27,294 nt of DNA, from the IMG/VR virus record IMGVR_UViG_3300043427_000860, positions 1-27,294 of that record, one strand, 5' to 3'. Below, in pieces: positions 7,501-25,862 of the stretch (positions are counted from its first letter, which is position 1; each line of letters starts with the position of its first letter). Position numbers and translations under genes: made by a program. A model generated the notes under the pieces. That model did no database searches. It saw only the letters and a list, made by a program, of their open reading frames with translations, and was not told where the DNA came from. This DNA comes from a virus.

Positions 7501-7603
7501 ATATTACACAAATATACTATATAATCCTAGTTATTTGGGTATTTTTGCTTTGTTGCTAAAATACAACATATTTCGGGCAAAAATTTCTTGCAAAAAAGTC
7601 GTT

Positions 7604-7649
7604 ATAAATCAATAACTTACGCTAACATCTGTGTAAGTTGTTGATTTAT
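7604..7649. repeat. 17-bp inverted repeat upstream of the early promoter
   Basis: The arms are 7604-7620 and 7633-7649. They pair at 16 of 17 positions, with a 12-base loop. The right arm ends 15 bases before the -35 box of the rightward promoter. On the minus strand the hairpin is followed, after six bases, by TTTTTT, so it may stop leftward transcripts. It may also be an operator for the promoter. Confidence 0.65.
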
Positions 7650-7664
7650 ATAGGGTTTTTAAGG

Positions 7665-7730: not shown

Positions 7731-8012
7731 ATGAAAAATCTCGTGGTTCTAGCAACATGTCTGTCATTGACAGGTTGCGCTACGATCAATCCACACAATC
7801 AGCCTGATCAGCAACGGGCTGTTGGTTATCATATTGATCGTGAGATCGCTAAACAAGACACTATGACCATATTGAAAACTGTAGGTACTATCGTGGTAGT
7901 TGGCGCTATCGCAGGCGCGTTAGGTAAGCAGAACCAACAAAGTAAGTGTGCCAATAACCGTGCAGGTTTTTGGCAAGATCATACTAGTGGTAAGATTTAT
8001 ACTTGCCCATAA
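7731..8012 (+). CDS. Small lipoprotein with an extra hydrophobic segment
   Basis: This encodes 93 residues. The N-terminus MKNLVVLATCLSLTGC is a lipoprotein signal peptide with lipobox LTGC; Cys16 would be lipidated. A second hydrophobic helix (TILKTVGTIVVVGAIAGALG, about 46-65) and two further cysteines (C73, C92) follow. It is the first gene after a strong host-type promoter, with GGAGAG as ribosome-binding site. Early phage lipoproteins often block superinfection by acting at a receptor or DNA entry channel, which I infer as its likely role. A spanin-type lysis role is less likely because it is not next to the holin-like gene and is not proline-rich. Confidence 0.82.
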   Translation: MKNLVVLATCLSLTGCATINPHNQPDQQRAVGYHIDREIAKQDTMTILKTVGTIVVVGAIAGALGKQNQQSKCANNRAGFWQDHTSGKIYTCP

Positions 8013-8023
8013 TGATTGATTTG

Positions 8024-8047
8024 AATAAATAATTTTGTTACTATAAC
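8024..8047 (+). promoter_or_regulatory. Possible promoter elements upstream of the AAA+ gene
   Basis: An AATAAATA box at 8024-8031 matches the late-type motif seen on the other strand. TATAAC at 8042-8047 could be a -10 box with TTGAAT at 8021-8026, although that spacing is only 15. Either would lie just upstream of the hairpin in the leader of the ATPase gene. Confidence 0.25.
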
Positions 8048-8051
8048 AATC

Positions 8052-8095
8052 GTTCGTGACAATTTCTTGATACGTCAAGGTCTAATGTCACGAAC
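8052..8095 (+). promoter_or_regulatory. Structured leader: 10-bp stem with an inner UACG-capped hairpin
   Basis: The outer stem pairs 8052-8061 with 8086-8095 (ten perfect pairs). The inner stem CTTGA/TCAAG (8066-8070, 8075-8079) is closed by the loop TACG. It lies in the 111-base gap between the lipoprotein and ATPase genes, ending 28 bases before the ATG. There is no T-run after it, so a simple intrinsic terminator is unlikely. It may act in RNA processing, stability or protein binding. Confidence 0.6.
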
Positions 8096-8123
8096 ACTTT
8101 AGATAAACTTTAAGGAGATTTAT

Positions 8124-8948
8124 ATGTCTATCAAACACAACGGCCAATTCGGCATCTATCCTATCAACCCTATTGCCAAAGAAGTACAAGATACTTTCGA
8201 CGGCATCTATGCACAGACAGTCAGTTTTGTGCAAAATCCAAATAGCGCAATCAATGGTCTGATCGTATCAGGCGATGCGGGTACAGGTAAAACACATACT
8301 GTTAAAAAAGCATTGCGTGATACTAATCATGCTTCAAATGTTGAATATATTAAGGGCGGTAAAATTACTGCTGCCGCATTATATGTCAAATTGTTTTTGA
8401 ATCGAGCCAAACATCGTATCTTGGTTGCTGACGATTGTGATATTATCCATCACCATGAAAAACGACAGATTATTCCTATGTTGCTTGGTGCTGTTGATCT
8501 TGGTCAAAATCGTCAAGTAAGTTGGGAAACTACAAAAAGAAATGCATTGATGGAAGAATTTGATGTACCTCATGAATTTGATTTTAATGGTAGCGTAATT
8601 TGGATCACCAATGATCGCAAGCAAGATATCGGTAAGAGTATCAAGCAATGGAAGAATGCTATTCTTAGTCGTTTTAATTTTGCTGAATGCAATTTTAGTG
8701 ACGAACAAAAATTCATGTACACTATGCACCTTGTACAAAACGTAGATATGCTTGGTACAAATTGTATTGATTTTGCAGGTGGCTACCCTAAAAAGGTCAT
8801 CGATCAAACTATCGAATACATGAGCAATAACTATAGGCGTTTGGTAGAAGTTACTCCTCGTCAAGCGATCAAGATTGCCGATATCATTCATCACAATGGT
8901 TATGGCACTGATCTCACTAATCGTATGTTGCAACAATTGTGGAAGTGA
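8124..8948 (+). CDS. AAA+ ATPase
   Basis: This encodes 274 residues. Walker A is GDAGTGKT (residues 50-57), Walker B is LVADDCD (100-106), a sensor-1-like Asn lies in WITND (160-164), and a possible arginine finger is in SRFNF (182-186). The C-terminal quarter is a helical lid-like region (PKKVIDQTIEYMSNNYRRL). The layout fits single-domain AAA+ proteins such as helicase loaders or DNA-remodelling ATPases. No helicase or protease domain is attached. It has a strong ribosome-binding site (AAGGAGAT). It is in the rightward early operon, where it could recruit a replication or transcription factor. The specific partner is unknown. Confidence 0.85.
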   Translation: MSIKHNGQFGIYPINPIAKEVQDTFDGIYAQTVSFVQNPNSAINGLIVSGDAGTGKTHTVKKALRDTNHASNVEYIKGGKITAAALYVKLFLNRAKHRILVADDCDIIHHHEKRQIIPMLLGAVDLGQNRQVSWETTKRNALMEEFDVPHEFDFNGSVIWITNDRKQDIGKSIKQWKNAILSRFNFAECNFSDEQKFMYTMHLVQNVDMLGTNCIDFAGGYPKKVIDQTIEYMSNNYRRLVEVTPRQAIKIADIIHHNGYGTDLTNRMLQQLWK

Positions 8949-8953
8949 TCAAT

Positions 8954-9466
8954 ATGACTAATGACAAAAACGAATGGGGTAATCTTAGTTTACCTGGGCT
9001 GTCACATGAAGAATTGATGGATCCTAATCTTAATTACGTGCTTGCTAATCTTGCACGTAACAAAGATCCTAAATGGTTAAAAAAGCAACAAGAGATTTAC
9101 AAGAGTCCTAAATTCATTAAACTCATGGGCAAAATCAGTAAGGAAAATTGGACTGATCCTGAGTTTCAAGCAAAGCAACATGCAAGTAGAATTTTAGCAT
9201 GGGCGAATGCTAGTGAAGAACGCAGACAACAGGTCATTGATCAATTCAGTCAACCTAAAACTGAAGATCATAAAAAGAATATTGGTAAAGCACAAAAGGA
9301 GTTTTACAAAACACCTGAAGGTAAAAAAGTATTAGAACAAAAGGCGGCTAAACAACGTGGCGTACCTAAAATAAAATTTACTTGCCCGCATTGTGGTAAG
9401 ATAGGAGGGCCTATCTTAAAACGTTGGCATTTTGATAATTGTAAACACAAAGGAGAAAACAAATGA
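8954..9466 (+). CDS. NUMOD3/zinc-finger DNA-binding protein without nuclease domain
   Basis: This encodes 170 residues from ATG 8954. A GTG at 8939 is possible but overlaps the ATPase end. It consists of repeated short helical units with K, W and PEF/PKF signatures (PKWLKKQQEIYKSPKF, WTDPEFQAKQHASRILAW), then a NUMOD3-like segment (PKTEDHKKNIGKAQKEFYKT), then a zinc motif CPHCGK...RWHFDNC (C-x2-C-x14-H-x3-C). The NUMOD3 plus CPHCGK-GG--RWHFDNC end is typical of phage homing endonucleases of the GIY-YIG or HNH type, but no catalytic domain is visible here. It may be a former homing endonuclease turned DNA-binding regulator, or a remnant. The frame is intact. Confidence 0.75.
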   Translation: MTNDKNEWGNLSLPGLSHEELMDPNLNYVLANLARNKDPKWLKKQQEIYKSPKFIKLMGKISKENWTDPEFQAKQHASRILAWANASEERRQQVIDQFSQPKTEDHKKNIGKAQKEFYKTPEGKKVLEQKAAKQRGVPKIKFTCPHCGKIGGPILKRWHFDNCKHKGENK

Positions 9467-9792
9467 ATCAAACTAAAACTATTGACTTTGGAAAATTCAT
9501 CAAGGATGAATTTTTAGAATTGAATAAGCAAGAAGATTTTGCTATTCAGTTGGGTAAAAAAGATACAGATCCTAAAACTGCTAAAGTGGTCAAAATGTTA
9601 TTGGAAAATATTGAAGGAAAAAGAGCAGCCTTGCGTGAAATTCTTTTTATGTTATACAAAGAAATCAATAAAAATTTTCCACATGTTAAAATCAATGACA
9701 ATTATGATTTATTTGAAAATTTTACTTTTACATTGGAAGTAAAAAAATTAGATATGCCATTAATGGATTTCAGTAAACCAATTCACCCATAA
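9463..9792 (+). CDS. Unknown 109-aa protein
   Basis: This 109-residue protein overlaps the previous gene by 4 bases (ATGA), so it is translationally coupled, with AAAGGAGA as ribosome-binding site. It is Lys-rich with a central helix (AKVVKMLLENIEGKRAALREILFMLYKEI) and a beta-like end (NFTFTLEVKKLDMPLMDF). I recognise no family. It is the last gene of the rightward operon. Confidence 0.75.
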   Translation: MNQTKTIDFGKFIKDEFLELNKQEDFAIQLGKKDTDPKTAKVVKMLLENIEGKRAALREILFMLYKEINKNFPHVKINDNYDLFENFTFTLEVKKLDMPLMDFSKPIHP

Positions 9793-9795: not shown

Positions 9796-9824
9796 TTGAT
9801 TTTATTACGAAGGTTTTTTATACT
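9796..9824 (+). promoter_or_regulatory. Sigma70-like promoter in front of the structured RNA region
   Basis: TTGATT (9796-9801) is followed by a 17-base spacer and TATACT (9819-9824), reading rightward. Initiation near 9831 would place the start 9 bases before the first hairpin, and no coding region follows on this strand. Its -35 box begins 4 bases after the stop of the last rightward gene. Confidence 0.5.
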
Positions 9825-9830
9825 GTATTT

Positions 9831-10140
9831 GTGTATCTAGATCAACACTCTTCTTAGTCAATCCATATAAGTTGATCATTTGTAATCTCTGACCACGAAG
9901 GCGCACAAATCGTGGTACTAATTTAGGTCGTGCATATTAGCCCCAAGATTCTTATTTTAAAATAAGGAGCACTCTCAAAATTGTTGCAAGGCTAAAGTAT
10001 CTATCGCCCACAGATCGCACGGAAGTGGGCGACTTTATTAGTAGATGTAGGGTGTGCTATACGGATAGACTATGGCTTAGTCTAAATAGGACGGATTTTG
10101 GCACTCAACATAATGGAAAAGCGCACACCCTACGAATTTA
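9831..10140 (+). ncRNA. Candidate structured noncoding RNA (five perfect stems)
   Basis: This gene-free region holds five clear stems. P1: 9840-9846 with 9871-9877 (7 bp). P2: 9892-9898 with 9910-9916 (7 bp). P3: 9937-9942 with 9990-9995 (6 bp), enclosing a perfect 16-base palindrome at 9951-9966. P4: 10004-10011 with 10025-10032 (8 bp). P5: 10047-10057 with 10123-10133 (11 bp), enclosing TAGACTA/TAGTCTA (10066-10072 and 10078-10084, 7 bp). A sigma70-like promoter precedes it. It is not a tRNA or tmRNA: no TPsiC arm and no CCA-type end. The structure also exists on the other strand, so the transcribed strand is not settled. The boundaries are estimates. Confidence 0.5.
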
Positions 10141-10389
10141 TTTAGTCTTCTTATCGATAAACTCGGTTATAACACTATCATTTTGTTTAAAAATGATCCT
10201 TGGTGGAAAGAATTGTATCTCTTGTATACTATTTGCCCTCTTTCCAATGATGCGTAGTCCACACCATATTCCTGCGAGGAATGTCACAGCAGTCATGAAT
10301 ATGATGGCTACTACCAACACTTCTGCAACTGCACCAAGCCAAGCAGGTAAACTTTTAATAAATGCGATCAATGTTTCTAGCATGTTCAT
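10138..10389 (-). CDS. Small membrane protein, holin candidate
   Basis: This encodes 83 residues (81 if the better-spaced ATG at 10383 is used, with AAGGA 8 bases upstream). The N-terminal half has one long or two short hydrophobic helices (WLGAVAEVLVVAIIFMTAVTFLAGIWCGL, about residues 17-45 with an interior Glu). The C-terminal half is soluble and charged. Size, topology and position after the last fibre gene fit a holin, which forms holes in the inner membrane at lysis. No endolysin is next to it in this window, so a generic small membrane protein remains possible. Its stop TAA is part of an ACTAAATA box. Confidence 0.65.
   Translation of the reverse strand: MNMLETLIAFIKSLPAWLGAVAEVLVVAIIFMTAVTFLAGIWCGLRIIGKRANSIQEIQFFPPRIIFKQNDSVITEFIDKKTK
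10139..10146 (-). promoter_or_regulatory. Late-promoter-like box ACTAAATA facing the structured RNA region
   Basis: The minus strand reads ACTAAATA, overlapping the stop codon of the holin-like gene. At T4 spacing the start is 10133, exactly the first base of the 11-bp stem P5 read leftward. It has no protein gene downstream on its own strand before the rightward operon. Confidence 0.4.
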
Positions 10390-10394
10390 TTTCC

Positions 10395-13946
<3,552 letters not shown>

Positions 13947-13958
13947 GTTATTGACTCC

Positions 13959-14774
13959 TTAATTATATACGCCGTCTGACGCTACCAAGAATAACAAGAA
14001 TATGCTCTCATCATATGCAGGGGTAGTGCCACTCGCGGGAAAACTGATCTTGATTCTACCTGTGAAACATGCTGGATCTGTAGCATTGATGCCAAGATCG
14101 GGGTCACCAGGAAGTCCTGAGTATGTGACTTGCAAACTATCACGACCTATAGTTGCCCATGTTTCTTCATCGATGACTAATGTGAAACTGCCTGTTGCGT
14201 TCACACGATTAGTGATTGATAGACTGATTGGAAGTGCTTCTATGCGATTCATCGTCATAGTGCCACTTGCTGTGCTTAGTGCAAATACTGCACCTGGTGT
14301 GTATGTTGGGCTTGCACCACGACTTGCTGATATTGTGAAACTTGTTGCGTCAATCACTTCTTTGACATAGTATGTCGTATTGATTGCTACACCACCGAAT
14401 ACTGTACCTTTAAATTGTACAGGCATACCAATGAATAGTTCTGCTGTTGAACTACAAGTCAATATGTTTGTACCTGTAGTTGTTTGTGTGATCGTTGTGA
14501 TCTGACTGACTAATGGATAGTCTGATATAGTGAAGTCATATCCACTACGACTATCACGGAAGTTTGTGATGGCTCTGCGAATGATTGTCGCATCAATCGT
14601 TGCACCTGTTAAGTTGATTGGTGTAGTGCCTGTCTGCCAACCACTTGGGTAACTTGTGATGTTACTCCATACTAGATTCCAGAAATCTTTTTGATTGTAT
14701 ACTAGTTCTTGTGCTAGTACTTGCCCATCAAATCCACCGACTTGATTGAGCGTGTTTTGACTGAATTTTGCCAT
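13959..14774 (-). CDS. Tail/baseplate-associated protein with inserted phage-type domain
   Basis: This encodes 271 residues. The N-terminus (MAKFSQNTLNQVGGFDGQVL) and C-terminus (SFTLVIDEETWATIGRDSLQ, ending ESIFLLFLVASDGVYN) look like one structural protein. Residues about 96-175 contain ILTCSSTAELFIGMPVQF and GTVFGGVAINTTYYVKEVID with FTISAS, a repeat-like beta module that I recognise as recurring in many unrelated phage tail proteins, usually written GTxFGGVxxxTTYYVK. The module appears inserted between the two halves. It lies between two collagen-like fibre genes, so it is probably part of the tail tip or fibre base. Ribosome-binding site AGGAAG. Confidence 0.75.
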   Translation of the reverse strand: MAKFSQNTLNQVGGFDGQVLAQELVYNQKDFWNLVWSNITSYPSGWQTGTTPINLTGATIDATIIRRAITNFRDSRSGYDFTISDYPLVSQITTITQTTTGTNILTCSSTAELFIGMPVQFKGTVFGGVAINTTYYVKEVIDATSFTISASRGASPTYTPGAVFALSTASGTMTMNRIEALPISLSITNRVNATGSFTLVIDEETWATIGRDSLQVTYSGLPGDPDLGINATDPACFTGRIKISFPASGTTPAYDESIFLLFLVASDGVYN

Positions 14775-14795
14775 CTCTGCTTCCTCGCATTATTG

Positions 14796-14825
14796 ACGCA
14801 ACATCACTACCTCGCAATGTTGCGT
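14796..14825 (-). promoter_or_regulatory. Perfect 9-bp hairpin in the leader of the 271-aa tail gene
   Basis: ACGCAACAT (14796-14804) pairs with ATGTTGCGT (14817-14825) around a 12-base loop. It lies 22 bases before the ATG and directly after the predicted start at 14829. No T-run follows on either strand, so a terminator is unlikely. It may stabilise a 5' end. Confidence 0.55.
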
Positions 14826-14834
14826 GTTATATCT

Positions 14835-14842
14835 TATTTATA
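14835..14842 (-). promoter_or_regulatory. Late-promoter box TATAAATA (271-aa tail gene)
   Basis: The minus strand reads TATAAATA, identical to the T4 late-promoter consensus, in the 68-base gap between the fibre gene ending at 14843 and the gene starting at 14774. The predicted start is 14829, giving a 55-nt leader with the hairpin. Confidence 0.55.
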
Positions 14843-17206
14843 TTAACCAACTCTCCAATTAGTACCATCGCTGAATACTGGTACATAATTGCTACCGCCA
14901 CCTCCTACTACAGCATAGAATGTTGTAGTATTAGCATCATTTACAAATAATCTAGTACCAGAAATAGTTACATTAGGTAAGTTTGCAAATGCAACATTTG
15001 GAGTTAGTATAGTATTTGCATATAAAATACTTCCATCTATTGGATTATAACTTAATAAATTTTCTTGAGGACTACCTGATTGTGCTATTGGCTTCACATA
15101 TAATGTACTGACCGCAGTAGAAATAGTATTACCTGTCGCATTCAAGATGATAGCATTATTAGTTATAGCACTAGCAAAGCCACCTACGACTATGGCATTT
15201 GAAGCAGGATAACTGACATTGGTCGATATATTAGCGCCGATCGCAATAAAATTATTTGATTGACTATATAAATTGACATTACGCCCAATACTAATACTAT
15301 TATTTGCATTGCTTATTGAATTATTGGCAAGTATAATTTTATTAGTAGTATTGATCGGTGTTGTTATAGAAAACGCATTTGTAGTGTTATTAAAAGTAAC
15401 ACCAGAAATACCACCAAATGCACCACCATTATTATATTGTATTTGAGTATTGCTACCACCAACGCTACCATTGCCGGCATTACCTGTTTGTGCTACCCAA
15501 GTTAAATTACCAGCGCCATCCGTTTGTAATACATATCCATTAGTACCACCGGTGATGCTGATATTTGCAACAGTACCTAAATTCACATCACTAGCATTTG
15601 CTGTATCTAATATTCCTGTTATACTTACAGTATTACTAGTTTTATTGAAAGTAAATGAGTTGCTACCATCAAAATTACCATCATCATTAAATTGAATATT
15701 TGTATTACTTCCGCCTGTTGGTTGTAAATCATATGATACACCATTAGCATATTGTAAATTATCTGTTCTTACTGCATTAGCAGATAGATATCCACCGGTG
15801 ACTGTGACGACATTAGCATTACCTTCAGCACTTATAGTAACATTAGCATTGGCAAATGTTCTTACATTAGCATTACCATTCGATATTAAAGTAGTATCGA
15901 TACCAGTAAGCAATGCACCATTACCAATAAAATAATTTGCAGATACATTTGCTGTAAAGTTTGCACTATTGGCATTAATGTTTGAAGTGATGTTGGCGTT
16001 GTTTACACTAATGTTACCACTAATATTAGCGATGTTGCCTTCTATGATATTGCCTTTTATAGTACCAGTATTTGCATAGATGCCACCTGTGTTACTAAAC
16101 ACATTGTCAGCATATATAAAATTTGCTTCTAATATGGTGTTTAGTAAAATTTTATTATCTGCAACAATCATCTTAGGTGTACTGCCAGCACCACCATATA
16201 TCTCGCTGTTAGCATTTGTGCCTGTGATCACAAATCCAGCATTACCATTACGTAAACTATTGGCTAAGATATTACCTGAAACAGTAAGATTTGATAAAGT
16301 GCCAACACTGGTTATGTTAGGTTGTGCATTAGTAGTCAATGTACCAGTAATGAAATTTGCCAATACAAGATTAGCGTTTGCTGTGAGTACTCGTATCTCT
16401 CCTGCCGAATCACGCAAAACAACTGTTGTAGGTGCGTTAGCAACAAAACTTGGGAAATAGCCTTGCAAGGCATCACAATTTAAATTACTGACTAAACCAG
16501 TAGCAGATACGATGAAAGGTGGCGTGTTACCAATCACATTGCTTACGAATTGTGTTGCTTGTACTTGACCATTGACATTCATGGTATTACCTGTTACAAC
16601 TACAACATTGCTATTACCACTCACACTAATATTAACATTACCATTTGCCGCAGGTATACGAATATTGCTATTGCCATTACTGATTTGACTTGCATCAAGA
16701 CCAGTCAACAAACTACCATTACCAATAAAGAAATTTGCTCTGGCAGCATTACCAAGATTTGCGTTACCGGCTACGAAATTTCCACTAATACCACCTGTGA
16801 TACCTACTAAATTAGTACCACGAATAGTACCAGAATTAGCATAGACATTACCTGCTGAAATATTGGTTGTTACAGTAACATTACCACTGACTGTTAGATT
16901 GCTATTGGTATTATCCCAAAGTAAATTTGCGTTGCCACCAACGTTGCCACTATTGTTGTACAATATCTGTTGATTTGCACCTGTGGCTGCTAATTGCCCT
17001 GTCGCGCCGGTAGCACCAGTCGCACCAGTCGGTCCACCACTTGGTCCTGTAGCGCCAGTGGGTCCTGTCGCCCCTACTGCACCAGGAGGTCCGCTACTGT
17101 ATACGCCTATGCTTGTTGGAGTCGCAGTAACACTAAGGCCCGGCGCATCAGGAGTGATAGTGATACCAAACGGTTGAACTACGAAATTGGCGTTGATCTC
17201 AGCCAT
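14843..17206 (-). CDS. Collagen-like tail fibre (787 aa), paralogous in modules to the 1183-aa fibre
   Basis: This encodes 787 residues. The N-terminal anchor (MAEINANFVVQPFGITITPD) is followed by a short collagen block (about residues 37-74). Repeated units then follow: ANFFIGNGSLLTGLDASQIS and NYFIGNGALLTGIDTTLIS, each followed by NSNIRI/NANVRT and an NVTISAEGNANVVTVTG-type strand pair. QILYNNSGNVGG, NIQFNDDGNFDG and TQIQYNNGGAFGG units alternate with these. The same units occur in the 1183-aa protein ([27 protein letters not shown]), pointing to module duplication. The C-terminus is short (NYVPVFSDGTNWRVG) and lacks the C1q-like head. Very Asn-rich. It is probably a trimeric side or tip fibre. 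It starts one base after the stop of the 166-aa gene (AAGGTATC ribosome-binding site). Confidence 0.85.
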   Translation of the reverse strand: MAEINANFVVQPFGITITPDAPGLSVTATPTSIGVYSSGPPGAVGATGPTGATGPSGGPTGATGATGATGQLAATGANQQILYNNSGNVGGNANLLWDNTNSNLTVSGNVTVTTNISAGNVYANSGTIRGTNLVGITGGISGNFVAGNANLGNAARANFFIGNGSLLTGLDASQISNGNSNIRIPAANGNVNISVSGNSNVVVVTGNTMNVNGQVQATQFVSNVIGNTPPFIVSATGLVSNLNCDALQGYFPSFVANAPTTVVLRDSAGEIRVLTANANLVLANFITGTLTTNAQPNITSVGTLSNLTVSGNILANSLRNGNAGFVITGTNANSEIYGGAGSTPKMIVADNKILLNTILEANFIYADNVFSNTGGIYANTGTIKGNIIEGNIANISGNISVNNANITSNINANSANFTANVSANYFIGNGALLTGIDTTLISNGNANVRTFANANVTISAEGNANVVTVTGGYLSANAVRTDNLQYANGVSYDLQPTGGSNTNIQFNDDGNFDGSNSFTFNKTSNTVSITGILDTANASDVNLGTVANISITGGTNGYVLQTDGAGNLTWVAQTGNAGNGSVGGSNTQIQYNNGGAFGGISGVTFNNTTNAFSITTPINTTNKIILANNSISNANNSISIGRNVNLYSQSNNFIAIGANISTNVSYPASNAIVVGGFASAITNNAIILNATGNTISTAVSTLYVKPIAQSGSPQENLLSYNPIDGSILYANTILTPNVAFANLPNVTISGTRLFVNDANTTTFYAVVGGGGSNYVPVFSDGTNWRVG
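16996..17094. repeat. Collagen-encoding codon repeats in the 787-aa fibre
   Basis: About 33 residues of Gly-X-Y ([16 protein letters not shown]...) are encoded by 9-base units. The block is much shorter than in the neighbouring fibre gene and is placed directly after the N-terminal anchor. Confidence 0.8.
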
Positions 17207-17207
17207 G

Positions 17208-17708
17208 TTATTGATACCTTACTACAAAGCCTAATGGTTCTCTGTTTATATCTGTCAAACTGACGTTGCTATTGCTAGTTCTGCTGACATTCAATGTGAC
17301 GATTACTAGTGTGCTGTTGGCTGCATTATTGGCTAATGCAACATTAGGTATGCCTACGTTAGCAGTACCAGTGATGTTGTTACCAACATATAGATAGCCC
17401 GTACCCGCGTTAGCATTGGTGAATGCTGTGACTAAGGTATATGCGTTAGCATTGGGCTGTGTGTTGTTTACATTGATGTTACCTAACACAACTGTATCAG
17501 TAGCGGTGCCTGCACCATATGTGATATCATCTACAGTATAGAACTTAGCGGCAGCACTCAATGTCCAACCATTGCAGTTGACAGCATTGCCATTAGTATC
17601 TGTAAATGTTAATGGGAAAGTATATGCTTCCCCTGTGTAGATTTCGAGGCATTGCATCTCCGTGCCTGCGAAAGTCATCGTTTTTGCGCCGTTTAATAGT
17701 AGACTCAT
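17208..17708 (-). CDS. Baseplate upper/BppU-like N-terminal domain protein
   Basis: This encodes 166 residues. The pattern of an aromatic-rich opening strand (CLEIYTGEAYTFPLTFTD), NGNAVNCNGWTLSAAAKFY and a C-terminal NVSLTDINREPLGFVVRYQ is like the immunoglobulin-like N-terminal domains of baseplate/receptor-binding adaptor proteins (F-I--G-TY-FPL---D--G and GWTFSA). Such domains attach fibres to the tail tip. It lies between the J-like tip protein and a fibre. Ribosome-binding site AGGAAT. An AATAAATA box at 17728-17735 gives a predicted 14-nt leader. Confidence 0.7.
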   Translation of the reverse strand: MSLLLNGAKTMTFAGTEMQCLEIYTGEAYTFPLTFTDTNGNAVNCNGWTLSAAAKFYTVDDITYGAGTATDTVVLGNINVNNTQPNANAYTLVTAFTNANAGTGYLYVGNNITGTANVGIPNVALANNAANSTLVIVTLNVSRTSNSNVSLTDINREPLGFVVRYQ

Positions 17709-17727
17709 ATTCTTGATTCCTATATAT

Positions 17728-17735
17728 TATTTATT
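17728..17735 (-). promoter_or_regulatory. Late-promoter-like box AATAAATA (BppU-like and fibre genes)
   Basis: The minus strand reads AATAAATA followed by ATATATAGGAATC. The predicted start is 17722, leaving the ribosome-binding site AGGAAT right at the 5' end of the mRNA. It would serve the genes from 17708 leftward. Confidence 0.5.
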
Positions 17736-17740
17736 ATTTC

Positions 17741-20503
17741 TTATACGAAAGGTGTTTGTCCTTTTGAAGATACAATACTTCCCGATGTTATAATGACATT
17801 AGCACTATCAGTTATACATCTTACTAAAACTGCTCCACCTGTAATTGAGGAAGCATTACTAAAGATTTCTGTCTGCAATCTTTCCCAACTAAATTGTGTA
17901 GTATCAGATAGCATCTCTAGTGTGTCCATTCTATTGGTATCACTAAAATAAAATGCATTATTGCCAGTTTTAAAACCTTGTACAATTTGCAATATTGTTC
18001 CTGGTGTATCAGTCACAGCAGTAAATCCAGCATTAATAAAATATGCTTGATTATTGACTAAACTGCCATTAGCAAAACTATCGGTGCAAACTGCATACCA
18101 ATTATCTTCACCATCTCCTGCAGTCAATATGGCTGCCGTAGAAGGAGTCCAGGCGCCAGTACTATTTGCTTGATAATAATTGTTACCATTACTACCAGCC
18201 GTATCTCGTGCCGTACCTTGATAATATGGATAAATGTTGTTAGCGCCAGGATCTACACCAATAAAATATATGGGGACATTTCGTGTGCTATTTGCAGTAG
18301 CATCGACTGGTAATAATACAGGTGCTAGATTTGCTTGAGGATTTCCTTCATTGATGCTGAAATTATTACCACTTATTCTTTGTGATATAGTTAGATTACC
18401 ATCTAAGGCAATATTTGCTCTTGTACTATTTGCGGCAGTAATATCGAAACCAATACCCCTGAAGTTCAATGTCTGACCATTGGTGATGACATTGATCCCT
18501 TCTTCTTGTACTGTAACGCCAACGCTTCCTGCGATAGCATTTGCAGGGATACTATTTGGTCTATAGACATTGCCAGGAAGACCACCATTACCTGTATTGC
18601 TATTATAAGGTTGTATGTTAGCACCGCCCCACGGGAACACATTGCTTGCACCACTGCGCTTACCTGCTGTGTTATTTCTAGCAGTCACGCTCCAATATAG
18701 ATTACCTGCGGGTAAGTCATTGACATCTACGATTACACTTGTGACATTACCATTAGCGATATCAGGACTATTAGTGAATGGAGTACCATTGCTCTGTTGT
18801 AATGTACGATATAACAAATGCGTCAATACATTGCTATTATTACCATAGTTGAAATCCATGTACAATACAAGACCTTCTTCTGGTACGCAACTCTCGACTT
18901 CGAAACCTGTGATCAATCCTTGTGTGTCTGTGAAATTAGTGATGACTGGATCACATGGCGCACTTATGATATTAGGATCTTTCAATCCTGTATTGAATGC
19001 GGGTATAAAATCGGCTACAGGATCATCGACATAAACTGTAGCATTGTATTCGAATGCACGGAAACTTGCAAACAAGTTACCATTCATATCTTTTTCTTCT
19101 ATGACTTCGCTGACACGGAAGAGTTTATCTGTCCAACCATATGTCTCATGTGTTATGCGAACCACATCGCCTGCTTCTACTTGTATGCCTGAATAATCAG
19201 TACGGAAACTAACGACAAGATCCTCACGGCTTTGATATATGCGTCTTGCTGCCAAATATTTTGCTTGTACTGCATTGTTTACCAATGGCAATGTGATGTT
19301 TAATCTATTGACTGCTTCATTTTGTGACAACAACGATGGATTAGTATCAAATAGATTGATGATCTGATAATCAGTCTGATCTTTCACATTTAAATTTGGA
19401 TATGCGACTTCTGTTTGATTATATGTTTCATTGAGATCGATAGGGCTTATCTCTATACCACCAACAAGATTGCTACTGTTTACCAAGAATAGATCATTTA
19501 ATGTCTGTGCATTTGGCGTCTGAGTATATGCTTTGTTAAGCACTACTTTCCATTTGCCTTGTAACTCACTATATTGCAACCAACTATCGCAAGTGTCTAC
19601 AAGATATTGTAGATTGGTCAAGCAATTTTGTGCTGTATCTAGTGGCCCATTGATGCGATATCTTGCTTGTGTAGGGCTTGGACCCCCTGTTACTGTGATA
19701 GTTTGATCGCTATATGTATTGACATCATCTAAACTTGCAGTATCGATCTGCGCTAATGGTATAGCACAACCATAGCGTGTGTTCATCATGTAATCTTTTA
19801 ATGCAGTGCCTGGTCTATAGATACCGCTAGCCGCAGTTTGTCCATTTTCAGTATTCTTGACTTGTGCAGTTAGTGAGCCTAGTCCTGTAGTACCTGCATC
19901 TGTGCTATAAACTACTTTGATTATTGCAAATGCGCAATCAGTCATTGCATATGTGCTAGTGCCCCAACCAGGAAACACATCATATGCGTTTTGTGTAGTG
20001 TTCGTACCGCTAGTAGCACCTGTGCTACCGTTCTTGTAAAGATATATGTTCAAGAATCCATTAACTCTCGTATCAGTCTGCGTTGGGCTGACATTATTAT
20101 TGATCAATGCTGTGACTTTTGTAGTGCCACCTGATCCATCACTACCAAACTGTACTAATTTACCATCATAATAGATATCACCATAACTGATAGTACCATT
20201 ATCAGTTACTTCTGATAACGCTACAACATAGTACATGGTCTTTTGATCTGGTGTCAGATACGCATCAATGATTGGTCCACCTGTGAATGCGCTACCATAT
20301 ACTACAGGTATCTTGTTATCTGTTGCTGGCGGTAATTGTACGCGACCACCACCATCACCACCTGCTTGTGCCTTTGCTATGGCTCTTTTAGCCAATAATC
20401 TACTGACGCCAATACTAAATGCGGTGGTGACTACGAATTTGACTACAGCGGCTACTGTGACTTTTGCTACTGCGGCTGCGACAAATGCTACTACTGGTGC
20501 CAT
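17741..20503 (-). CDS. Tail-tip host-specificity protein (J-like)
   Basis: This encodes 920 residues. The N-terminus is hydrophobic and Ala/Val-rich (about residues 1-40), then GGGRVQLPPATDNKIPVVYG begins a typical phage tip domain (IPVVYGSAFTGGPIIDAYLT, MYYVVALSEVTDNG). The middle (about 290-490) has the beta-rich hub fold found in lambda J-type proteins (CDSWLQYSELQGKWKVVLNK, VVSFRTDYSGIQVEAGDVV, TYGWTDKLFRVSEVIEEKD). A fibronectin-like part follows (LPAGNLYWSVTARNN), then a variable end. It closes the tail tube and contacts the receptor or holds the fibres. It is preceded by a GNAT gene with one base between. Ribosome-binding site AGAGGAAT. Confidence 0.87.
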   Translation of the reverse strand: MAPVVAFVAAAVAKVTVAAVVKFVVTTAFSIGVSRLLAKRAIAKAQAGGDGGGRVQLPPATDNKIPVVYGSAFTGGPIIDAYLTPDQKTMYYVVALSEVTDNGTISYGDIYYDGKLVQFGSDGSGGTTKVTALINNNVSPTQTDTRVNGFLNIYLYKNGSTGATSGTNTTQNAYDVFPGWGTSTYAMTDCAFAIIKVVYSTDAGTTGLGSLTAQVKNTENGQTAASGIYRPGTALKDYMMNTRYGCAIPLAQIDTASLDDVNTYSDQTITVTGGPSPTQARYRINGPLDTAQNCLTNLQYLVDTCDSWLQYSELQGKWKVVLNKAYTQTPNAQTLNDLFLVNSSNLVGGIEISPIDLNETYNQTEVAYPNLNVKDQTDYQIINLFDTNPSLLSQNEAVNRLNITLPLVNNAVQAKYLAARRIYQSREDLVVSFRTDYSGIQVEAGDVVRITHETYGWTDKLFRVSEVIEEKDMNGNLFASFRAFEYNATVYVDDPVADFIPAFNTGLKDPNIISAPCDPVITNFTDTQGLITGFEVESCVPEEGLVLYMDFNYGNNSNVLTHLLYRTLQQSNGTPFTNSPDIANGNVTSVIVDVNDLPAGNLYWSVTARNNTAGKRSGASNVFPWGGANIQPYNSNTGNGGLPGNVYRPNSIPANAIAGSVGVTVQEEGINVITNGQTLNFRGIGFDITAANSTRANIALDGNLTISQRISGNNFSINEGNPQANLAPVLLPVDATANSTRNVPIYFIGVDPGANNIYPYYQGTARDTAGSNGNNYYQANSTGAWTPSTAAILTAGDGEDNWYAVCTDSFANGSLVNNQAYFINAGFTAVTDTPGTILQIVQGFKTGNNAFYFSDTNRMDTLEMLSDTTQFSWERLQTEIFSNASSITGGAVLVRCITDSANVIITSGSIVSSKGQTPFV

Positions 20504-20504
20504 A

Positions 20505-20960
20505 TCATTCCTCTGTGTTTATCCAACTCTCTGCTATCTTATCAAAACCAAATCTAGTGAACTCTATGTCAAACATTGATTTGGCTGTGCTGATCGTATA
20601 AAAGTGTATACGCTTTTGTTTTTTCAATGTCTCGCAATATTCTTGGTATGATTTCAATAACATATAACCTGCTCTGGTATTTCTATATTCTTCATCGACA
20701 TACCATAATAGTTCATTCATCAATAATGTCTTATCACTCCAAATATTTGGTGATATCAATGCCATCAATATACCTATAGGCTCATCGCTTTCTGCGATCA
20801 ATACTAAACCACCACCATTAATGGCAGTAACAAACATACTGTTTAGGTATTGATCATCTAATTCTACTTCGAAGGTACCTATATCACCTAATTGATGTAT
20901 CTTACGCACCATATGTATGAAATATGGTAGATCATGTTTATTTGCTAATCGTATGTTCAT
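20505..20960 (-). CDS. GNAT family N-acetyltransferase
   Basis: This encodes 151 residues from ATG 20960 (MNIRLANKHDLPYFIHMV). An upstream ATG in frame lies inside the neighbouring tail gene and is not needed. GNAT features: the beta1-alpha1 opening RLANKHDLP, LVLIAESDEPIGILMALIS (beta4 strand), LWYVDEEYRNTRAGYMLLKS (motif A, here R-N-x-x-A-G in place of the usual Q/RxxGxG/A acetyl-CoA loop) and HFYTISTAKSMFDIEFTRFGF (beta6 and motif B). It transfers acetyl from acetyl-CoA to an amine; the substrate is unknown. Its position in the middle of the tail-tip cluster suggests it modifies a tail protein or is carried cargo. Confidence 0.82.
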   Translation of the reverse strand: MNIRLANKHDLPYFIHMVRKIHQLGDIGTFEVELDDQYLNSMFVTAINGGGLVLIAESDEPIGILMALISPNIWSDKTLLMNELLWYVDEEYRNTRAGYMLLKSYQEYCETLKKQKRIHFYTISTAKSMFDIEFTRFGFDKIAESWINTEE

Positions 20961-20964
20961 TTGT

Positions 20965-21774
20965 TTAATTCTCTTGCATTTGATCGTTGCCACCACCAGG
21001 ACCACCTGGTATGCCTCCGCGTCCTGGTACTGTGACTTTGCCTTTTGGATCTCGTCCAAAGTCAAACTGCACGCCACTTATGCTATAAACATTGTTCATG
21101 CTAGTGTCTGTGCTATTAAAGAACTGCCAACTTTCCTTGTTTGTCTTTCTTCCTGCAATTCTATTTTCTAACACAGTCTTATATGGACTTGCGTTTATGC
21201 TGACTGTGAAATTATCATCTTGACCTTCACGATCTTCTGTGACAGCATATGTAGTAACGATGCCACGAAAGCGTTGATATACGGGACTTTCTATTACCAT
21301 GTTATTATCATAGAATCCACGATATATCTCTAATTCACTACCTCTGATCTTTGTAGCAAGCACAGTAAAGATATTATTACCATCGATACCACTGAGTGCT
21401 ATGGTAGTATCACCCTGTGCTACACGAATGTTTCTAGCCTGCGTACCAACTTGTAATAGTCCTTGCAATGCACTATATGTATTACCTGCTATGACTTCAT
21501 TTTTATAACTTGTGCTTGCTGTTATGACTGTGACATTGCTAGCAGTACCATTACCTGTACCTGCACTATTTGCAGTAAAGTATGTACCTACTGCATTGCT
21601 ATTTGCACCAATCGCAGTCCAGTTTGTGTTACCTGATGTCTGTATGATGTAAGTAGTGTTGGCAGCGATATTAGCCGCGACTGTTGGCGGATATTCATTG
21701 AATATCGTGAGTTTCACGAACTCTGCGCTATTGATCTGCGTAGCATTGTTACTTACTTGAGGTATCGATTGCAT
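20965..21774 (-). CDS. Tail-tip assembly protein with inserted beta module
   Basis: This encodes 269 residues from ATG 21774, which shares TAATG with the previous stop. A start at 21792 would overlap needlessly. The N-terminal 25 and C-terminal 170 residues (RNIRVAQGDTTIALSGID, SELEIYRGFYDNNMV, QRFRGIVTTYAVTEDREGQD, PYKTVLENRIAGRKTNKESW) fit a DUF2163-like tail protein of the tip. Residues about 38-79 (ANTTYIIQTSGNTNWTAIGA followed by NSNAVGTYFTANSAGTGNGT) are a different unit that I recognise as a recurrent phage insertion (TYxITSVGxTDFTxIGA followed by VGxxFTAxGAGTGxGT). The end is Gly-rich (GRGGIPGGPGGGND). The protein is probably between the distal tail ring and the J-like tip. Confidence 0.75.
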   Translation of the reverse strand: MQSIPQVSNNATQINSAEFVKLTIFNEYPPTVAANIAANTTYIIQTSGNTNWTAIGANSNAVGTYFTANSAGTGNGTASNVTVITASTSYKNEVIAGNTYSALQGLLQVGTQARNIRVAQGDTTIALSGIDGNNIFTVLATKIRGSELEIYRGFYDNNMVIESPVYQRFRGIVTTYAVTEDREGQDDNFTVSINASPYKTVLENRIAGRKTNKESWQFFNSTDTSMNNVYSISGVQFDFGRDPKGKVTVPGRGGIPGGPGGGNDQMQEN

Positions 21775-22460
21775 TATGCTGTTCCTACCCACTCATAAAG
21801 AGTGAAATCATCATTGAATTCTATCAATGCATTGTTCAATGTTGTTCCATTATTTCTAGCATAGCCACCTGGTATCAACTTATATGTTGGCATGTTTGGA
21901 CAGAACATGTAAAATTCACAACTATTACCCACAGTCAATCCTGCGCCTACTACTGAACTTGTTATGATATTTGGTCTATTTGTAGTAACTGTGACTGTAC
22001 CTGCACTACCTCTAGTCACTTGTGTAGTGCTAGTGAATGGATATTTATTATTGCCTATCTGTATCAAATCGTTTGGCTCAAATATAACTCTAGTGCTAGG
22101 TACTGTGGGTAGACCACTCAATACTAATTGATTGCCTACGAAACTTTGCACAGTAAGTCCATTCAATTGATTTGTTGTCAATTGACCTTGATATCTAAAT
22201 ATCCAACTTAAACAACTATTATCGCTGAATGTCACATATTGTGGTGTATATCTATCTATCGTATCTAATGCTTCTAATAGATCACGATTGTTGTAATATT
22301 TTAAACTTGATGGCATAGTCAATACAAAACGCCATGGCTGTTTAGTTGGTGTGAGGCTAGTGCGAGGTATCTCATTGCGTGTTACTTGCACGCCAACGAC
22401 CTTTCTACGATCTATCGTCATACCACTAGCATTGTTTATAATTGTTTGTAAGCCTGCCAT
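21774..22460 (-). CDS. Distal tail-like structural protein
   Basis: This encodes 228 residues. The start MAGLQTIINNASGMTIDRRK, then VGVQVTRNEIPRTSLTP, PWRFVLTMPSSLKYYNNRDLLEALDTIDRYTPQ and a beta-rich remainder (SWIFRYQGQLT, QLVLSGLPTVP, NDLIQIGNNKYPFTS) read like the distal tail proteins that follow the tape measure in several siphophages. This is inferred from style and order; no diagnostic motif is available. It is coupled to the next gene by TAATG. Ribosome-binding site AGGAAAAC. Confidence 0.7.
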   Translation of the reverse strand: MAGLQTIINNASGMTIDRRKVVGVQVTRNEIPRTSLTPTKQPWRFVLTMPSSLKYYNNRDLLEALDTIDRYTPQYVTFSDNSCLSWIFRYQGQLTTNQLNGLTVQSFVGNQLVLSGLPTVPSTRVIFEPNDLIQIGNNKYPFTSTTQVTRGSAGTVTVTTNRPNIITSSVVGAGLTVGNSCEFYMFCPNMPTYKLIPGGYARNNGTTLNNALIEFNDDFTLYEWVGTA

Positions 22461-22471
22461 ATGTTTTCCTA

Positions 22472-24688
22472 TTATGCGTATGCCATCTCTCTGCGAGCAG
22501 TCTCAGTCACACCGAGCAATGTCTTGCGATTCTCAGCGAACAACTGCGCTACAGATTTTGCGTCTAACGCGCTTATGTTATTAGTTATGTAATTGTTAGT
22601 GATAGGAGCATTAACCTTGCCTGTGCCCATCGCTTCTGTGCTTGCACTTAGTTGATTATTTGGTATCACAGTACCTGCACTCTTTGGCACGAACAATTCA
22701 GGACCCTTCTCACCAACGATGTATGGTTGACCTGCATTTGCTGGGCCACCTGTAGCGAGTCCTGGTATGCTGAAACCAAATAAGCCTAATGTCGCTTGTA
22801 TAGCCTTGAATATCTGTGCTTTCAATATCATTTTAGCCAAATCTTGTATAACACTTCGTGCAAAATCACTAAACTTGAATTTACCTGTCTCTACGAATTG
22901 ATCGACTGCGCTACCTATCTTGCCCCATGTTTGTGCGATAGCATCTTGTGCCATCTTATATGGTTTTAGACTATCTGCTATCTGACTGACTGCTTGCACA
23001 ACGCCTGCGGCATAACTTTGTTCTAATGCTTTCTTCTCATCGATCTCACGTTGTTTCTCGCTGATAGCAAAATCTGTAGCCTGCTTAGTAGCATTCAATT
23101 GATTTTGTAATTCTTGTTTTCTGATCGTATCTTTTTCGCCGGCGATTTGTTGTTCTAACTGTAATTGCTTTGCTAAACCATCTTCACGAATTTTATTCAA
23201 TGCGATAACATTATTGGCTTCTGATTGTGTGATCTCGCCAGCAATGACTTTACGCATTTGCTCTGCTTGCATGTTAGCAGTGTTTTGCTGGCTCTGTTGC
23301 TGTATCAAGCCCAATTGTTTCTGTAGATCAACTGCTGTTTGTCTTTCAGCAAAGTTTCTATCGATTGCTTCTTTCTTAAGTGCAGCCATAGCAACTAATT
23401 GCTTATCGGCTAATTGTTGTTGTGTTTGTAACTCTGCTATCTGTGCTTGATTGTTTTTGCTTGTATCTGCCTTCAATGTGGCAATCTGTTTCTCATATGA
23501 AGCCAGAGACTTAGCACGATCTTGTTGCAATTGCGCATCGATTTTTGTAGCATCGGCAATCTCTTGACTTACGCCAATAGTGCCATTGACTATTCTTTCA
23601 TATTCTAATGCAGCCAGATTCTGCTTGCGCATCTCTTCAGTCTGTGCTTTTGCAGTTGCTAATGCTTTGTCAGCAGGTGTCTGACCTATCGTGCGTTGTG
23701 GTGCGCCTGATGGTGTTGCTGGCATGCCGGGTGCAGTTGGTGCACCATCTAATCTTTCCTTCTCATCGGCAGCATCGCCCATAGCCTTGCCTAATGCTAC
23801 ATAGGCTGCTGTGGCTGCTACGCCTGCGGCTGCTACTGCGGCTAATCCAACACCACTCAAGCCTGCTAAAAATGCGCCTGCTGTGCCCGCGGCACGCATT
23901 GCTGTGGCTAATGCTTTTACTGCTTGTATAACCTTAGTGATCTGTATGACTGTGGCTGCGGCAAACGCACCTGCGATTACTGCACCTAATACTTGCATCG
24001 CCTTCTTGGCATCTTCAGTACTGAATTCGAATTTAGATAATTCTTCCAATATTGGCGCTATTGCTTGTAATGCAACTAATTGTAGATTTCTAAATGCAAC
24101 TTCTATCTGACCAATAGCATCTGCGGCTAATCTTAAATTACGTTCTACATTAGGATCTACTGCTTGGTTGAGACCATCTGCTAATTTTTTAAAGTCTACA
24201 CCGGCTGCCGACTTGCCAAACAATTCTGTAGCGATGCGTGTTTTCTCAAAACCATTTTCCATGCCTGCAAGACCTTGCACGACACGATTGAATAATTGTT
24301 CGTCAGTTAAGTTTTCTATCTCACTGCGACTTAATCCTAACTTAGTCAGTGACTCTATGGCTTGTTCACTACCTTTTTCGATATCACCTAAACTTTGACT
24401 GAATGCCATGAGCATTCGTCCACCACTATCGAACTGACCACCAGCGGCTTCTAATGCTGTGCTTAATTGATATATCTTAGCGACACTGAGACCTGTGGCA
24501 TCTGCTAGATCAACGATACCATCTGCCATTCTGGCTGCACTTATTGCTAATGCACTAAATGCGGCTACGCCCGCAGTAGCAGTTCTGGTAAGTGTAGTCT
24601 GCAAGCCATCTAAACTTTTGTTTAGATTTTCAACTTGTTGTTGACCATCGACTTGTATCTTGATTTTATAATTGTCTACTGTTGCCAT
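22472..24688 (-). CDS. Tape measure protein
   Basis: This encodes 738 residues. It fixes tail length and is injected with the DNA. An N-terminal helical, heptad-like region (about residues 1-60) is followed by a TMP core domain (about 60-200), a strongly hydrophobic Ala-rich stretch (about 230-310, QVLGAVIAGAFAAATVIQ and GLSGVGLAAVAAAGVAATAA) that can cross the inner membrane, and a long Gln-rich coiled coil (about 380-560). The C-terminus carries the typical VGEKGPELFVPKSAG motif. By the usual rule of about 0.15 nm per residue the tail would be about 110 nm. The start shares TAATG with the gp10-like gene. No internal stop or frameshift seen. Confidence 0.93.
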   Translation of the reverse strand: MATVDNYKIKIQVDGQQQVENLNKSLDGLQTTLTRTATAGVAAFSALAISAARMADGIVDLADATGLSVAKIYQLSTALEAAGGQFDSGGRMLMAFSQSLGDIEKGSEQAIESLTKLGLSRSEIENLTDEQLFNRVVQGLAGMENGFEKTRIATELFGKSAAGVDFKKLADGLNQAVDPNVERNLRLAADAIGQIEVAFRNLQLVALQAIAPILEELSKFEFSTEDAKKAMQVLGAVIAGAFAAATVIQITKVIQAVKALATAMRAAGTAGAFLAGLSGVGLAAVAAAGVAATAAYVALGKAMGDAADEKERLDGAPTAPGMPATPSGAPQRTIGQTPADKALATAKAQTEEMRKQNLAALEYERIVNGTIGVSQEIADATKIDAQLQQDRAKSLASYEKQIATLKADTSKNNQAQIAELQTQQQLADKQLVAMAALKKEAIDRNFAERQTAVDLQKQLGLIQQQSQQNTANMQAEQMRKVIAGEITQSEANNVIALNKIREDGLAKQLQLEQQIAGEKDTIRKQELQNQLNATKQATDFAISEKQREIDEKKALEQSYAAGVVQAVSQIADSLKPYKMAQDAIAQTWGKIGSAVDQFVETGKFKFSDFARSVIQDLAKMILKAQIFKAIQATLGLFGFSIPGLATGGPANAGQPYIVGEKGPELFVPKSAGTVIPNNQLSASTEAMGTGKVNAPITNNYITNNISALDAKSVAQLFAENRKTLLGVTETARREMAYA

Positions 24689-25014
24689 TATATCTTGATC
24701 CCTAGTTTGTTATACACATAATCACGCACTTCTTGCAACGTAGGTTCAGTCATACCTTTTGGTGCTTGTGTTGACCAACCCTCTTCCAATCTTTGCGCAT
24801 ATGGGTAATTCGCTTGTATCTCATTACTGCGTAACACAGTCTTGCGTCTTGCATTACCAGGTTTATAATTCTTTGGTGCTCTGCGTGATTTCCAACGATT
24901 TGGATCTCCAATTGGTGTATTATCTTTATAAGCATCATAGGCAACTTTGCTGATATTTTTATCATCAAGTGTCTGTAATACTTTGTTAAGACGATTCACG
25001 CAGTTGCTAGCCAT
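24688..25014 (-). CDS. HK97 gp10-like / tail completion protein
   Basis: This encodes 108 residues, basic in the middle (WKSRRAPKNYKPGNARRKTV), followed by YAQRLEEGWSTQAPKGMTEP, which fits the Y---LE-G-S-QAP pattern of HK97 gp10 or neck-type proteins with the later PTLQEVRDYV. These join head and tail or finish the tail tube. The unusual feature is its place after the tail chaperones and directly before the tape measure, while gp10-like genes usually precede the major tail protein. It is coupled at both ends (TAATG). Confidence 0.65.
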   Translation of the reverse strand: MASNCVNRLNKVLQTLDDKNISKVAYDAYKDNTPIGDPNRWKSRRAPKNYKPGNARRKTVLRSNEIQANYPYAQRLEEGWSTQAPKGMTEPTLQEVRDYVYNKLGIKI

Positions 25015-25232
25015 TATTTTTTCCCACTGTTCTTGATCTTGAGCAATTGTTCAGTACTCAAATTATAAAGTTTAGGATCTATAGTACCACCTTTTGCATT
25101 TTTCTTTGCATTCATGTAATTTTCATAGGCAGCAAGGACATCGGTAATCATGAAATCATATGTGGTAGCATGTTGTTCCACTTCATGTGGTAACATACCA
25201 TACTTCTCAGCCATACGACCTATCGTGATCAT
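25014..25232 (-). CDS. Tail assembly chaperone, second (GT-like) part
   Basis: This encodes 72 residues. MITIGRMAEKYGMLPHEVEQ followed by FMITDVLAAYENY resembles the C-terminal half of tail chaperones (GT in lambda), which bridge the tape measure and tube subunits. The ATG at 25232 overlaps the stop of the 114-aa gene. A -1 shift at CAAAAAT (25231-25237) would fuse the two frames with no stop between. The next gene starts inside its stop (TAATG). It could be made as a separate product by re-initiation, as a fusion, or both. Confidence 0.7.
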   Translation of the reverse strand: MITIGRMAEKYGMLPHEVEQHATTYDFMITDVLAAYENYMNAKKNAKGGTIDPKLYNLSTEQLLKIKNSGKK

Positions 25233-25573
25233 TTTTGCGCTTCTCCAATCGTTTGGATCGATGCCTTGCTCTGTGGTTTTCCCAACACTTCTCCTAGTTT
25301 ATTGATGACTGCGGCAGCAATATCAATTGGTAAATCCTCATCATCTGCTAATATACGATTGCCATGACTATCTAAGATCATGCTTTTCATCATCTTGTCT
25401 AGGTTGCTAAATTCGTTATTGCTACGTGCGTTAAAGAAGTCAAAATATGTTGACATACGCACGATGTTGTATGTGTGAAACGTGATAGGTTCACCATACT
25501 TTTCGATGATATCATCATTATCGATGATCATCTCTACTAGTTCTGGTTTACTTGCAAAATCTTTGATATTCAC
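25229..25573 (-). CDS. Tail assembly chaperone, first (G-like) part
   Basis: This encodes 114 residues, started by GTG (25573) with a good AAAGGAGAT ribosome-binding site. It is acidic and helical (DFASKPELVEMIIDNDDIIE, KYGEPITFHTYNIVRMSTYF), with the pattern of tail chaperones that precede the tape measure. It coats the tape measure before tube assembly. An AATAAATA box at 25604-25611 predicts a 25-nt leader. The gene ends with CAA AAA TGA, a possible slip site. Confidence 0.78.
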   Translation of the reverse strand: MNIKDFASKPELVEMIIDNDDIIEKYGEPITFHTYNIVRMSTYFDFFNARSNNEFSNLDKMMKSMILDSHGNRILADDEDLPIDIAAAVINKLGEVLGKPQSKASIQTIGEAQK

Positions 25574-25603
25574 TTGTTATCTCCTTTATGAATTGTTATA
25601 ATG

Positions 25604-25611
25604 TATTTATT
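25604..25611 (-). promoter_or_regulatory. Late-promoter-like box AATAAATA (tail chaperones to fibres)
   Basis: The minus strand reads AATAAATA, in the 36-base gap between the coiled-coil gene and the chaperone gene. The predicted start is 25598, for a leader of 25 nt. It would restart transcription downstream of the terminator at 25822-25850. Confidence 0.5.
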
Positions 25612-25807
25612 AATTACCAGCGTACTTGTCATAGTGTTCTTCTAGTAATTGATTGAGCAATGCTAGACGAAAGGCTTGTTTCGCTTTCATCTGTCTGATA
25701 GTGGCTTCCATGTTAGTCAACATTGGAAGTAATTTTGCCTCGTCGGCGATAAGACTTCTTAATTTTTCTTCCTCAGTCTTTAGGAAGGTATTGTTATTGT
25801 TATTCAT
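25610..25807 (-). CDS. Small coiled-coil protein (65 aa)
   Basis: This encodes 65 residues. After an Asn-rich start (MNNNNNTF), residues about 10-58 form one charged heptad-like helix (EEEKLRSLIADEAKLLPMLT, MEATIRQMKAKQAFRLALLN). It has a GGTGAAC ribosome-binding site and lies just downstream of the intrinsic terminator, so it is made from read-through or a separate start. I recognise no family. Small helical proteins at this site can be chaperones or head-tail accessory proteins. Confidence 0.7.
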   Translation of the reverse strand: MNNNNNTFLKTEEEKLRSLIADEAKLLPMLTNMEATIRQMKAKQAFRLALLNQLLEEHYDKYAGN

Positions 25808-25821
25808 TTGTTCACCATATA

Positions 25822-25850
25822 GAAAAAGAGAGCAGATCGCTCTGCCCTCT
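25822..25850 (-). terminator. Intrinsic terminator after the major tail protein
   Basis: On the minus strand, AGAGGGCAGA pairs with TCTGCTCTCT (10 bp, one G-U) around the tetraloop GCGA, followed directly by TTTTTC. This is a textbook rho-independent terminator, 12 bases after the major tail gene. It limits how much of the abundant tail-protein mRNA reads into the chaperone and tape measure genes. Confidence 0.88.
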
Positions 25851-25862
25851 TTCTTTGGTCAA

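Follow-up and report, generated by a model that had tools for sequence, protein, structure and literature searches.

Whether the five stems crowded into a single gap of this viral DNA belong to one early RNA, as the first-pass annotation proposed, or to separate transcripts is the question that this locus raises. The window, by which we mean the whole stretch of 27,294 bases that was analysed, is a virus record and possibly a fragment. Its - strand holds the terminase among a set of genes that reaches 7468 and, farther on, the tail genes (10138-27217), and an operon of four genes (7731-9792) is on the + strand; the RNA-bearing gap lies between the convergent ends of the + strand operon and the 83-aa gene (Table 1). 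The terminase is of the ordinary large type, which argues against taking the P5 structure for a phi29-type packaging RNA, a class that belongs to phages with a phi29-type packaging ATPase and binds the portal. It shares about 28% of its residues with those of the nearest named phages. Comparison with related contigs gives good support to the conclusion that the gap holds two convergent RNAs and not one: RNA-A, comprising stems P1-P4 on the + strand, and RNA-B, built on stem P5 on the - strand.

Table 1. Features in and around the RNA-bearing gap (positions in the window; paired strands of a stem are separated by a slash).
Feature	Position	Strand	Evidence or remark
109-aa gene, last in the + strand operon, upstream neighbour of the gap	9463..9792	+	no family match
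RNA-A putative promoter, TTGATT-17-TATACT	9796..9824	+	consensus match; -10-like box in relatives
RNA-A, early-type structured RNA, P1-P4	about 9831..10033	+	conservation, covariation
P1 hairpin, GATCAAC/GTTGATC, 7 bp	9840-9846/9871-9877	+	double changes in all 7 pairs (relatives)
P2 hairpin, ACCACGA/TCGTGGT, 7 bp, 11-nt loop AGGCGCACAAA	9892-9898/9910-9916	+	
P3, TTAGCC/GGCTAA, 6 bp	9937-9942/9990-9995	+	encloses 16-nt palindrome, 9951-9966
Possible H-type pseudoknot helix at P4, ATCT/AGAT	9999-10002/10012-10015	+	
P4, TCGCCCAC/GTGGGCGA, 8 bp	10004-10011/10025-10032	+	
P5 closing stem, 11 bp	10047-10057/10123-10133	-	encloses 7-bp hairpin
RNA-B inner hairpin, TAGACTA-AGCCA-TAGTCTA, 7 bp	10066-10072/10078-10084	-	
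RNA-B body, late-type structured RNA (P5)	10133 to about 10047	-	z -4.6, covariation, covariance model
Late-promoter-like octamer of RNA-B, ACTAAATA (degenerate)	10139..10146	-	overlaps stop codon of 83-aa gene
83-aa membrane-type protein gene, last in the tail operon, other-side neighbour	10138..10389	-	
Other octamers, ahead of Shine-Dalgarno sites and late-strand gene starts	25611, 17735, 14842, 7500, 5050, 1225	-	

Every stem named by the first-pass annotation (6-11 bp, nested ones included) is at its place, and its claim that the stems exceed chance is borne out: the stretch has six perfect stems of 7 bp or longer, whereas dinucleotide shuffles average 1.6 and reach that number once in 300, and an 11-bp stem appears in three of 300 such shuffles. 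The folding energy of the entire stretch is unexceptional (z of -1.3 on the + strand and -1.9 on the - strand) and becomes exceptional only in the P5 part, on the - strand (z of -4.6). Its exclusions also hold, as a survey of open reading frames finds no plausible gene in the gap, ARAGORN predicts no tRNA or tmRNA, and no terminator-like site is present on either strand between 9500 and 10600, including the vicinity of RNA-B. Nor could the structure be matched to a known class: the window has no match to Rfam 15 at or above the gathering score, the best weak match being far below threshold, and RNA-A and RNA-B are unmatched in 17 related loci.

Searches that started from the 83-aa protein's relatives and from DNA patterns of the gap brought nine further contigs that carry the greater part of the element, and diverged copies came from further searches. 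Additional matches to the pattern CCCACAGA..GTGGG (L037-L044) and a match to another pattern (L030) were set aside as chance or coding DNA. A DNA similarity search of named phages matched neither RNA, and the RNA-A motif was found in no bacterial or archaeal genome. Among the listed matches to the RNA-B motif in bacterial and archaeal genomes (at least 117 stretches) there is no credible case, so these stretches serve as a control for chance. Base pairs were counted in stem segments that had been chosen by hand and linked by common spacers, because alignment of bare stems misplaced two sequences, and the hairpin inside P3 was excluded from the counts. Covariation in homologues had been named as a check of the structured noncoding RNA, and the stems of both RNAs covary.

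RNA-A, approximately 205 nt long, is conserved in the nine other contigs and has a diverged form in L006, L054, L079, L093 and L143. In P1 and P2 of 12 distinct sequences, 99.3% of the cells are paired and 10 of the 12 pairs have double changes; the double-change cells number 34 compared to 9.9 in shuffles (none of 500 as many), and this signal disappears once the partner is slid. Double changes occur in five pairs of P3 and P4, and P3 reads TGATCC/GGATCA in L004. The folding energy of RNA-A is ordinary (z of -0.8 and -1.5). A short helix at P4, AUCU/AGAU, is conserved, with GUCU/AGAC in L004 and L143, and could possibly turn P4 into an H-type pseudoknot. A pseudoknot of P2 that had been noticed by eye, UUUGU with ACAAA, is not preserved in L006 and L010 and was therefore abandoned. 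The promoter claimed ahead of the stems, TTGATT-17-TATACT, is present at 9796-9824, and its match to the consensus is not significant by itself (4 found, 5.2 expected); support for it comes from conservation in relatives, most copies having a TATAAT-like box 6-7 nt ahead of the RNA-A start and several a TTG-type -35 element. A sigma-70-type promoter on the + strand implies that RNA-A is probably early.

RNA-B has a body of 75-106 nt, a closing stem of 10-14 bp, and a GCCAUA loop motif that is kept in all copies. Its fold stands out in relatives (z of -5.0 in L053, -5.2 in L008 and -3.3 in L006) as in the window. In the stems of 14 distinct sequences, 99.5% of the cells are paired and 12 of 15 pairs have double changes, with 59 double-change cells compared to 14.3 in shuffles (none of 500 as many). 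In most relatives the octamer nATAAATA is located exactly 5 nt ahead of the first base of the stem, and in this group of phages the same motif is also found ahead of late genes that have Shine-Dalgarno sites. On the - strand of the window, six of seven octamers are 20-101 nt ahead of a gene start; the number of octamers is not above expectation, and only their placement is good. T4-type late promoters have TATAAATA at -13 to -6, which is similar to the octamer and its spacing from the start; both fit in relatives, the window copy being degenerate, but the window phage is not T4-like in terminase or genome size. A T4-like late motif, TATAAAT, has also been used for a marine phage (PMC9004378). 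The predicted first base of RNA-B is 10133, with an accuracy of 1-2 nt or so because offsets of -1 and +1 score alike, the stem often extending by one base. Stems of 9 bp or more with their anchor at +1 accompany 15 of 185 distinct viral octamer sites compared to 0.05 in shuffles, a result that tests the stem and not the motif because part of the loci were chosen for carrying the motif.

A scan of viral contigs with a pattern and a stem filter located RNA-B in L060, L062, L067, L079, L082, L084, L100 and L143. A covariance model built only from lineages with the 83-aa gene, applied to 294 kb, ranked the RNA-Bs of L082, L067, L053, L100, L060 and L062 at the top (E of 0.001-0.02) and missed that of L008. 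The neighbouring genes differ in L060, L067 and L100, yet RNA-B is again behind tail or late genes. RNA-B is thus a recurrent element at the end of tail genes in many uncultured phages, as judged from these contigs, with differing neighbourhoods. Behind RNA-B and on the same strand, some relatives have the COG2908 RNA of Rfam (RF02939; L053:3380-3424+, L079:10445-10489-, L084:1037-1081-), a separate 45-nt element to which neither RNA-A nor RNA-B is matched and which is absent from the window. It is the sole Rfam match in the 17 related loci, outside RNA-A and RNA-B (located in L053/L093, L079 and L084), and L006, L054 and L143 show variants of it. Small ORFs in L006, L007, L053, L054, L079, L084 and L143 are preceded by recurrent hairpins of the form CCCGA-loop-UCGGG, at most three per RNA.

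What the two RNAs do, including their transcription, timing, action and partners, we infer as follows. The reading that we judge rather probable on comparative grounds is that of two convergent small RNA genes, one for an early regulatory RNA with a sigma-70-type promoter and the other for a late, stable, trans-acting RNA. RNA-A would be transcribed on the + strand, probably early, and would fold into P1-P4 as a modular regulatory RNA. RNA-B would be transcribed on the - strand from the octamer, acting as a late-type promoter, and would begin right at the base of the closing stem, which would lock its 5' end so that the RNA should be stable. The conserved GCCAUA hairpin loop is a likely recognition element, and RNA-B most likely acts late and in trans by binding a protein or a host RNA while virions are being produced. 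In addition, late transcription that begins at RNA-B could continue, as antisense, into RNA-A and on through the early operon and so contribute to the shutdown of that operon; the window has no terminator between RNA-A and RNA-B, so such read-through could occur, but the terminators at that place in relatives argue against it as a general role.

The stems can also be read in other ways. A single early RNA on the + strand that carries all five would account for the one + strand promoter-like site ahead of them and for the lack of a + strand terminator between P4 and P5. P5 is nevertheless assigned to the - strand because of its anchoring to the - strand octamer, its wobble pairs (in eight cells a G-U pair of the - strand would become a mismatch if the other strand were read), its covariance model score (74 bits on the - strand, and no more than 24 bits on the opposite strand in any copy) and the intrinsic terminators, separate from RNA-B, that lie behind it in L006, L008, L053, L054, L067 and L143. 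Moreover, P5 occurs in L008, L060, L067 and L100 with no P1-P4 adjacent and none seen. A single RNA is therefore very unlikely, and the early character that the first-pass annotation gave to all of the stems stands for P1-P4, behind the sigma-70-like promoter, and fails for P5, which is on the opposite strand behind a late-type promoter. The one-sided G-U tolerance also bears on the idea that the inverted repeats act as DNA (a terminator pair, or a replication or packaging site): repeats between convergent genes are where terminators usually are, but the loops are conserved, the promoters are at constant distance, and the window stems have no U-tract behind them, which together make this highly improbable. 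RNA-B could instead be a 3' end structure that stabilizes or ends the late tail transcript, given that it is always behind tail genes, from which read-through would reach it; such a role would not need the conserved inner hairpin and loop, nor an octamer at constant spacing before the stem with the same motif as before late genes, nor the separate terminator behind RNA-B in several relatives, and we consider it unlikely. Another role, in which RNA-B would pair as antisense with ribosome binding sites on mRNAs of its own phage and block them through the GCCAUA loop and the UCC that follows, is suggested by the order and spacing of GCCAU and UCC, which would suit a ribosome binding site, and by several late genes of the window that begin with AUGGC. 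Pairing tests left it scarcely credible, as pairing no worse than that of the best site was seen in 31 of 200 shuffled segments, and RNA-B pairs with start sites of its own phage no better than do the RNA-Bs of other phages; no partner or target was found among the start sites of its own phage.

In relatives, small ORFs are inside or just after RNA-A, from which it may be proposed that RNA-A is probably a structured leader or scaffold that controls small accessory genes and that stands alone in the window, where no such ORF is present. An 81-aa ORF without a family match is embedded after P2 in L004, L007, L033 and L036, and L093 and L143 have an intrinsic terminator and another small ORF after RNA-A. 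Both arrangements would suit an RNA-A that does no more than act in cis, as leader or attenuator, on a small early gene, with the terminator ahead of the ORF in L093 and L143 and with the window copy as a remnant after gene loss. Six copies without an ORF, however, keep the stems and loops, which indicates that the fold is kept without the ORF, and the placement of the ORF varies between relatives while P1-P4 stay; we regard a mere leader as doubtful, though to be taken seriously. Because of the embedded ORFs, RNA-A was also considered as a self-splicing intron or HEARO-type element, and this identity was rejected: the element is located between genes, is unmatched in Rfam, and its 81-aa ORF belongs to no family. 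A peptide read through P4 was rejected as well, as its start is absent in the window, its frame and length differ among relatives, and L035 alters the protein yet keeps the stem. In five relatives, a second hairpin follows, with a loop complementary to that of P2 (GGCGCA with UGCGCC in L093, GGCGC with GCGCC in L007, GGCGC with GUGCC in L006, CGCGCACA with UGUGCGCG in L079, and GCGCA with UGCGC in L143), which suggests a kissing interaction between the two loops; RNA-A of the window lacks the second hairpin.

To our knowledge, few phage noncoding RNAs have strong covariation support. RNA-A and RNA-B are absent from Rfam 15 and from the literature searched, which is not proof that they have gone unseen. 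GOLLD and ROOL are likewise structured phage RNAs without a known function, GOLLD rising during lysis (PMC12286853), but GOLLD exceeds 800 nt and both are often near tRNA islands, whereas RNA-A and RNA-B are far smaller and the window has no tRNA; the GOLLD and ROOL covariance models of Rfam match neither the window nor its relatives. The phage small RNAs OOP, PreS, VpdS and sar (reviewed in PMC12197685) are also short and have promoters of their own, and some are antisense to neighbouring genes; unlike them, RNA-B consists largely of a single locked stem and a conserved loop, comes from uncultured phages, and found no target among the start sites of its own phage. The manA and wcaG RNAs, structured leaders that also occur in marine phages (PMC2864571), offer a parallel from aquatic phages to those copies of RNA-A that have an ORF behind them and may be leaders too, but RNA-A has no Rfam match and no metabolic gene behind it. 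It is a tentative proposal, one that we hold to be less probable than its negation, that RNA-B is a new and widespread class of late RNA, dedicated to an important task in the making of virions or the takeover of the host, and RNA-A a second new, modular class; if so, RNA-B is kept across lineages of uncultured tailed phages, and RNA-A gains and loses small genes with its fold retained. As a family, RNA-B is compact and open to test, with its start, structure and terminator predicted and its place behind tail genes fixed, and RNA-A shows how a structured RNA can hold its fold through the gain and loss of small genes. The locus also illustrates that stems in a single gap can belong to two RNAs of opposite strands.

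Other elements were noticed in these phages. A late octamer is followed by a leader in L003:9776+, L032:3491+, L033:3514+, L034:14230+, L010:2472-, L035:11581+ and L005:7069+, in which GCUCCU pairs with the Shine-Dalgarno sequence AGGAGC and the loops of two hairpins, UUUAGCG and CGCUAAA, are complementary to each other; it is a candidate translational switch before small genes. A different conserved leader is behind the late octamer in the window (14842 to 14775, - strand), with a hairpin stem that varies and repeated GCGAGG motifs, and has relatives at L010:9529-, L034:4956+, L035:3211+, L006:2015+, L004:1099+ and L008:879+. The divergent gap ahead of the early operon contains a long inverted repeat at about 7600-7655 (TTATAAATCAATAACTTACG.../...GTAAGTTGTTGATTTATA), possibly an operator. 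A 175-aa protein of the window (8939-9466, + strand) has a zinc-finger-like C-terminal stretch and matches the homing endonuclease family phrog_655 (E of 4e-7). The - strand genes at 10395-13946 and 14843-17206 encode two large proteins that resemble tail fibres and have collagen-like GATGATG repeats.
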